From: an uncultured Opitutia bacterium
GTDB lineage: Bacteria > Verrucomicrobiota > Verrucomicrobiia > Opitutales > Opitutaceae
NCBI GenBank assembly: GCA_903869665.1
Contig: CAIPZZ010000212.1
Location: forward strand, 1-34,173
Reading direction: 5' to 3'
Length of the DNA stretch: 34,173 nucleotides
This document shows positions 16,589 through 17,667 of the stretch, piece after piece. A program made the translations under genes and the position numbers. The number at the start of each line of letters is the position of its first letter. Position 1 is the first letter of the stretch. The notes beneath the pieces were generated by a model that was not told the DNA's origin, did no database searches, and worked only from the letters and a program-made list of their open reading frames with translations.

Positions 16589-16643
16589 TGGTGCCGATGC
16601 AAAAACGCCCCAAGAAGGCGAGCTGCGGAAATCGCGACACCTG

Positions 16644-16688
16644 AGTGCAGCTTTTGCCGGAAACCGGCTCAACCGCAAAAAGCTGCAC
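16644..16688. repeat. Inverted repeat with AGTGCAGCTTTT / AAAAAGCTGCACT arms
   Basis: agtgcagcttttgccgg...ccgcaaaaagctgcact; the same AGTGCAGC arm recurs as a palindrome at 16800-16816. Confidence 0.7.
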
Positions 16689-16799
16689 TGGGCCAAAATT
16701 CGCCGTTGCGGATTCCGTAAGCCCCGGCTTCATCTGGTCTTGCCTATGAGCGCTCCCGCTCACTTCCCCTACTCAACCCTCGGCCGCCACGCCGTTCGT

Positions 16800-16816
16800 G
16801 CTGCACTGAGTGCAGC
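16800..16816. repeat. Palindrome GCTGCACT-G-AGTGCAGC
   Basis: Perfect 8-bp arms around one base; shares arm with 16644-16688. Confidence 0.7.
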
Positions 16817-16828
16817 CGAATAACACTG

Positions 16829-17281
16829 TTCGGCAAGGAAATCTGTCATGCCATTAGTCATATCCAAAAAAGCCAAAAAAGTTTTCGTCATCCGAAACGA
16901 AGAGTGGCTTGGTGAGATTCTTGGTCACAGTAATTTCGACGGTGAAAATTGGGCCATAGGAGATGAAATCGTATTCGAAGATGGAATGACGGCAGAAATT
17001 ATACAATCTGAAGATAAGCACTTTTATGTGTGGTCCGACCCAAAAGAAAGCCAGCTATCCGAGGTCTTAGATTTATTGGGACGTGTTGCTCGTATTGATG
17101 ATTCTACGAAATCAGAAATCCGGACCTGGCAGGAGCTTTTCATGAAAATTCGTCCGCTTGCATCGCTGCGCTACGCATGAAAAAACAAACCACGGAGCCG
17201 AACCAGCGGCTACAGACAATGCCTCGGCACTTCCCCTTTCAGCTTTTAAAGTCTCTGGCTCGGCATGTCTGACCCGGAACG
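16829..17281 (+). mobile_element. Putative solitary integron-type gene cassette
   Basis: G^TTCGGC junction at 16828, AT-richer ORF, then attC-like site with R'' GCCGAAC (exact reverse complement of GTTCGGC) ending at G^TTAGGC (17281). Confidence 0.6.
16848..17180 (+). CDS. Hypothetical cassette-borne protein, 110 aa
   Basis: MPLVISKKAKKVFVIRNEEWLGEILGHSNFDGENWAIGDEIVFEDGM...; markedly lower GC than neighbours. Confidence 0.7.
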   Translation: MPLVISKKAKKVFVIRNEEWLGEILGHSNFDGENWAIGDEIVFEDGMTAEIIQSEDKHFYVWSDPKESQLSEVLDLLGRVARIDDSTKSEIRTWQELFMKIRPLASLRYA

Positions 17282-17287
17282 TTAGGC
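17197..17287 (+). other. attC-like recombination site
   Basis: R'' GCCGAAC, spacer, L'' ACAGACAATGCC, loop, L' GGCATGTCTGA, spacer, R' GTTAGGC; L arms pair with a single unpaired base. Confidence 0.6.
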
Positions 17288-17667
17288 GCGAAGCGCCTAA
17301 CCCCTGCGAGCCAAGAAAAGAGGCCGTGACGAAAAGCGCGTCGCCCCACGGCCTGACTGCGCACACGCCTTCCCGCGTTTAGCGCACCGGACTGGCGATC
17401 CACAGGTGATGTAGTCACCCCACGCCGTCAGGATGCGTCCGGCTTCCCGCTTTCTGCCGCTTGAAATTAGCGCTTGCGGCCCGCCCACCGCTTCTGGGAA
17501 GTTGACCGTTCGCGGCGGTTCTTTTGGTCAGGCTGGCGTTGCCGCGATGCTCCCGCCGGCCCTTCCCTGTCAGTTCAACCCTCAACCCATGGCCGCGCCC
17601 CGCGCGCGGCCTTCGCGGGAGGCCGGCGACCCGGAGCAGGTCGGTGGCGATCCCGTTGTTCAACACC

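Follow-up and report, generated by a model that had tools for sequence, protein, structure and literature searches.

The 34,173-nt stretch of DNA analysed here (the window), from an uncultured Opitutia bacterium, very probably contains an integron platform that lacks an integrase, made up of a copied attI module, one gene cassette, an intact attC site, a truncated older attC and a conserved 3′ tail (Table 1). A sequence-only reading had described a solitary cassette with an attC-like site and no visible integrase, either an off-site insertion or a relic. Below, C numbers denote contig loci of the window's own assembly (C212 being the window platform), G numbers genomes of the family, and L numbers listed loci; an arrow marks a crossover.

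Table 1. Features of the window platform, in window coordinates
Feature	Position	Strand	Description
5′ module	16643..16828	+	Imperfect hairpin, then leader to the crossover; without intI; based on identity with C266
attI-type site	16800..16834	+	GCTGCACTGAGTGCAGC palindrome and GCCGAATAACACTG↓TTCGGC core; crossover G16828↓T16829
Gene cassette	16829..17281	+	453 bp; own 5′ end TTCGGC complementary to own R′′ GCCGAAC
Cassette ORF	16848..17180	+	110 aa, AT-rich, AAGGA 5′ of ATG; orphan protein
attC site	17197..17287	+	From R′′ and L′′ across the variable region to L′ (one extrahelical base) and R′
Platform side of crossover	17282..17301	+	TTAGGCGCGAAGC and GCCTAAC; read as start of the empty platform
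3′ module	17295..17380	+	R′′/L′′-like truncated attC (GCCTAAC..AGCCAAG), then conserved tail ending CCCGCGTTT

The site that closes the cassette is an attC beyond reasonable doubt. Two covariance models were built: R1, which includes the window site and scores it at 63.5 bits, and R2, which comprises 12 attC sites, all from other genomes, with shortened variable regions. Searched against both strands of the 34 kb, R2 returned this site as its sole match up to an E-value of 10 (48.7 bits, E = 1.1 × 10−9); since no own-genome sites entered the model, the match identifies an attC and answers the earlier call for a covariance check. All parts listed in the sequence-only reading are present, namely GTTCGGC (16828–16834, which contains the 5′ crossover of the cassette), R′′ (GCCGAAC, 17197–17203), L′′ (CAGACA, 17213–17218) followed by an extrahelical A at 17219 and TGCC (17220–17223), L′ (GGCATGTCTG, 17262–17271), R′ (GTTAGGC, 17281–17287) and the ORF. 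With an ORF between two G↓TT crossovers and an R′′ that complements its own 5′ end, the segment has the make-up of an integron gene cassette. The site also matches L142, in an array of another MAG, at 92% over 113 bp; an Rfam search returned no useful match. When the bottom strand is folded, the L′/L′′ helix forms with its bulged base, and the total folding energy is ordinary (z = 0.03) because the variable loop is long. An ordinary energy is also what one would expect of a hairpin that arose by chance next to foreign coding sequence, with no integron feature present at all, but we reject that explanation, whose probability is negligible, on the strength of the independent R2 match and the attI homology described below.

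The cassette ORF has a GC content of 43%, against 65% for the window. Its 110-aa product has no match in Pfam or NCBIfam, no significant match in PDB or PHROGs, and no homologue among 252 family genomes, viral contigs and plasmids; one marginal match (E = 0.008, within a 957-aa frame) was not counted as a homologue. A single-sequence structure model was poor (pLDDT 55). Orphans of this sort are frequent among integron cassette genes.

The 5′ boundary of the cassette lies in an attI-type module that is common to intI-bearing integrons of the family, and the suggestion of an off-site insertion was not borne out. Judging from its sequence, the 5′ module, which opens with hairpin arms AGTGCAGCTTTTG (16644–16656) and CAAAAAGCTGCACT (16676–16689), corresponds to the intergenic region between intI and attI in these integrons. 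It shares 80% identity with C266 over 202 bp (−194 to +6), and parts of it are common to C171, C53 and L122, the last of which retains an intI remnant. The attI core adjoins a divergent intI frame in 16 of the Opitutaceae integrons examined, 64–218 bp from the frame start. For example, in the complete genome G008, of a different genus in the same family, the attI ends ..CAACTGAGTTGATGCCAATAACACTG↓TTCGGC and belongs to an integron with an intI of 358 bits (cut-off 265) and an array of ∼20 cassettes with mostly ∼90-bp attC sites. The exact pattern SCNAATAACACTGTTNGGCRA occurs at 60 genome loci and is absent from the viral contigs searched; all but one of the loci (59) belong to records of Opitutaceae, Opitutia or Verrucomicrobia, the exception being a Polaribacter; a single MAG, JAUSID01, contributed 13 of the compared attI sites. 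A scan of the leader for a sigma-70 promoter gave no match. The same boundary bears on whether the cassette entered a non-classical secondary (attG) site by chance. Such an event would agree with a single cassette that has no intI nearby, but its 5′ side would not be a conserved attI-type module, nor would its flanks recur at other platforms; the attI-type boundary contradicts this class, and we consider it highly improbable.

That the window lacks intI is correct but understates the result. A search of the whole assembly, which is 89% complete, for the integron integrase (TIGR02249) found nothing above the cut-off, and no intI similarity was detected within 3 kb 5′ of the window site. Three intI candidates in the same genome (C45, C215 and C112) were rejected as XerC/D-like, since each matching stretch scored 25–79 bits where 265 are required. 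In the genus of the window, intI is absent from six of six genomes, whose assemblies are partly incomplete; therefore present activity here cannot be claimed. Compared with a complete integron, the locus has a cassette with an attC (R2, E = 1.1 × 10−9) and, by homology to the attI of intI-bearing integrons, a probable attI, and lacks an intI beside it. The R2 match and the intI-negative assembly together support the earlier description of a gene cassette with an attC and without an integrase. Because attI and attC both look intact, we favour an intI-less platform over debris; the term ‘relic’ may still apply in that intI is gone, but it sits poorly with two intact-looking sites.

The window platform has siblings in its own genome. 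A DNA-level search of the assembly (2.75 Mb in 276 contigs) found copies of both window flanks at unrelated loci, and about ten platform loci of the window type. Attachment sequence of the attI type followed by a different cassette is seen at C266, C53, C171, C90, C153, C69, C80 and C160, while C22 and C84 retain an attC and C22 also the 3′ flank. The attC model gave strong matches in C266, C212, C69, C90 and C160, weaker ones in C84 and C22, and in C80 a match at noise level only. The proposed search for other attC sites in the genome was thus positive, and ‘solitary’ holds locally, where there is one cassette, but not for the genome.

Alignment of these loci separates constant flanks from exchangeable contents. 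The cassettes of C212 and C266 are unrelated, although the two loci agree at 80% over 202 bp on the upstream side and at 87% over 115 bp on the downstream side. Similarly, C90 and C153 have attI modules that match at 98% across 182 bp, and their cassettes are unrelated right after TT.GGCAAAG (beyond +11). Sibling platforms with matching flanks hold cassettes that show no similarity to the window cassette. The ∼90-bp 3′ module is common, wholly or partly, to C212, C266, C90, C53, C171, C69, C22 and L126, and in C53 and C171 it is read as GCCGAACAAGGCGCCAGAGCCAAG, a left attC half. Despite their different cassettes, C212, C266, C90, C69 and C22 have a remainder of equal length between the crossover and the truncated attC half with the shared tail. 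The flank pattern in C212, C266, C90, C153, C69 and C22 agrees with recombination of the integron type having taken place at the G↓TT of each platform. As near-identical copies part exactly at the crossover into unrelated cassettes, these were apparently acquired or swapped once the copies existed. None of the compared loci was an empty platform.

Two further observations concern the position that intI would occupy. At C69, C80 (L064, L270), L137, L150 and L172, a small divergent ORF starts 5′ of attI in the place of intI, and these starts have a common N-terminus (MPRAKARYRISVKDNLTGHR.. / MGRQTARFKISIKD..) in two genomes. At C90, the contig ends (position 20253) at exactly the expected intI start, beside the attI shared with C153; a repeated intI may have gone unassembled there.

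Integrase-less attI sites are widespread in the family. We surveyed 200 family genomes for the attI core with at most one mismatch, using the reversed pattern as a control. The core occurs in 77 of them, with 150 sites listed against ∼5 matches of the reversed pattern. Just 28 of the 150 have an intI no more than 2.5 kb away and 122 do not; contig ends explain some of the latter, 22 of which lie near a low contig end (only low ends were checked). An intI match at E = 10−45 is absent from 35 of 76 site-bearing genomes. Among genomes in one or few contigs, G008, G009, G024, G063, G080, G127 and G187 have both intI-adjacent and orphan sites, and G007 has two orphan attI sites and zero intI. Of the orphan sites examined in these genomes, almost every one precedes 1 to 9 or more attC; at L228 (G063) an IS element takes the place of the attC. 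In G008, the attC of the orphan platform L088 is 93–95% identical to several attC sites of the main array, which suggests a common cassette pool. Separately, L131 and L146 contain unusually long IntI-containing open frames of ∼660–670 codons (673 aa in L131) with an extra N-terminal part.

How platforms lost their integrase can be followed in relatives. Loci L225 and L226 of G009 keep intI codons 5–39 and 5–24, respectively, at the expected distance and then continue with the flank that lies behind intI, so that these sequences display intI deletion directly. In G063, two full integrons are 97% identical, a third has a partial intI, and an intI-less copy is homologous from −299 to +15 only. 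Plain decay would also produce such a series, which grades from a complete intI via a partial one to its first codons alone. On that view each site is what survives of its own full integron, with intI in cis, that shed intI and most cassettes at its own time, and neither small-unit movement nor IntI in trans is involved. Several genomes with 3–5 intI matches, the intI-like start MDENQAISFTD-stop that C266 retains (read by eye) and a weak intI remnant in C153 (E = 3 × 10−4) point the same way, and we give this explanation serious weight, if somewhat short of an even chance. What it accommodates poorly is the recurrence of one 5′ end among copies of a genome, which is hard to obtain by independent deletions. 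Five attI copies in JAUSID01 align from about −205 to between +5 and +13 at 82–96% and then diverge, three more align from about −226/−261 at 89–93% before diverging, four G002/G004 copies begin at about −120 and two G008 copies at −156, and the window platform, C266 and C53 have a common 5′ end at the hairpin. Several same-genome copies that end alike speak for duplication of a module that had lost intI beforehand rather than for intI decay at each site independently.

These shared ends could also reflect a MITE-like, non-autonomous unit of ∼120–260 bp with a capture site, dispersed empty and later supplied with cassettes by an IntI encoded elsewhere. The sharp 5′ ends within a genome, the conserved 3′ module and the constant post-crossover remainder are all compatible with this view, as is a gene beside a G008 platform: just 5′ of the orphan platform L089, at about 2400–2900, lies a transposase-like ORF of the REP-associated (Y1) type, and this RAYT-like ORF is a possible candidate for the dispersal agent. 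Both G008 platforms end near GGAAAAGGGGTCRAACTTTGCACTTTGCACACGC. On the other hand, the modules have common 5′ and 3′ ends but inspection by eye revealed no inverted termini, no target duplication or cognate transposase could be assigned to the dispersed modules, and an empty copy is missing from the loci compared. Moreover, the G009 copies share >2 kb of upstream DNA; as larger segments were copied in G009 and G063, sharp-ended short modules may not be the moving unit everywhere. We regard the MITE-like unit as possible but doubtful.

Insertion sequences account for other shared DNA at these sites. At L224 (G009), L225 and L228–L231 (G063), nearly identical insertions of ∼1.65 kb begin directly where an attC ends, encode an IS110/IS1111-like transposase and occur in orphan and intI-bearing arrays alike; they resemble the known IS1111-attC group. 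In G024, a 1.93-kb stretch follows the attC of an intI-adjacent site and again that of an orphan site (L234/L235, 98.8% identical) and encodes a 534-aa transposase-like protein. The long stretches that orphan and intI-bearing sites within a genome have in common, examined as possible shared cassettes, were IS elements, IS1111-like in G009 and G063 and with another transposase in G024.

The window platform is flanked by surE (start MRLLLTNDDG) and rpsA, gene names read from sequence. The sequence-only reading proposed a comparison of this interval in relatives. No platform lies upstream of rpsA in four same-genus genomes (G001, G002, G004 and G005), and none of the four offers a clean empty target. 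G002 and G004 have an SUMF1-like gene between surE and rpsA, G005 has a fragment resembling that gene, and G001 has other neighbours 5′ of rpsA. The outcome that the sequence-only reading named as its refutation, a missing attC covariance match and an ORF conserved here in relatives that lack the flanking sites, did not emerge, as the ORF is without a homologue at this locus or elsewhere in the 252 genomes.

We propose that family integrons or attI modules were copied to several chromosomal loci and that intI would have been lost by deletion, as in the relatives above. An integron integrase, acting in cis while intI was still present or supplied in trans by another copy, would join the folded bottom-strand attC and attI at G↓TT; action in trans of a distant IntI on such sites is plausible. 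Each platform would thereby gain its own cassette, as the near-identical flanks with different cassettes suggest. Without intI the cassette would be fixed and expressed at most from the leader or by surE read-through, leaving an orphan gene captured between surE and rpsA. It is tempting to extend this model to a distributed integron, in which one or a few Opitutaceae integrases serve many scattered attI modules, up to a dozen capture places in different transcriptional contexts, with the integrase later lost in the genus of the window and the cassettes fixed. We offer this extension tentatively and would sooner doubt than adopt it.

Integrons are usually described as having one integrase and one attI. 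The window platform resembles a sedentary chromosomal integron (intI, attI and array), full examples of which occur in the same family (G008, G009, G063 and G127), in its attI-type core, G↓TT crossover and cassette with attC, but differs in lacking intI, in holding a single cassette and in having several dispersed copies per genome. A capture site that is multi-copy, dispersed and often without an adjacent integrase would give solitary cassettes and integrase-less arrays a concrete origin, and dispersed attI sites make IntI action in trans testable. In a limited literature sample, and hence as weak evidence, we found no account of orphan, secondary, multiple or additional attI sites in integrons, and the only three papers that mention Opitutaceae together with integrons name neither in title or abstract.

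Earlier work has described CALINs, single attC sites and the loss of intI (PMC9024848, PMC12444791). CALINs are attC clusters without an integrase, with at least two attC by default (IntegronFinder, PMC9024848). Like CALINs and single attC sites, the window platform has an attC without a neighbouring intI, but its single full attC is accompanied by no more than a truncated half, and it keeps a recognisable attI, which is itself multi-copy. Surveys keyed to intI or attC clusters would overlook many such loci. Cassettes can also enter attG sites, which are non-classical and diverse according to Loot et al. 2024 as relayed in PMC12901181 and PMC12444791; as portrayed there, these insertions likewise place a cassette away from any integrase, but the 5′ site in the window is a conserved attI-type module. 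A parallel to intI loss with kept cassettes and arrays at other loci comes from Xanthomonas, where intI is inactivated, cassettes are kept and CALINs occur off-locus (PMC12444791). There, however, a single ancestral integron locus is described, whereas Opitutaceae genomes have attI modules at many loci.
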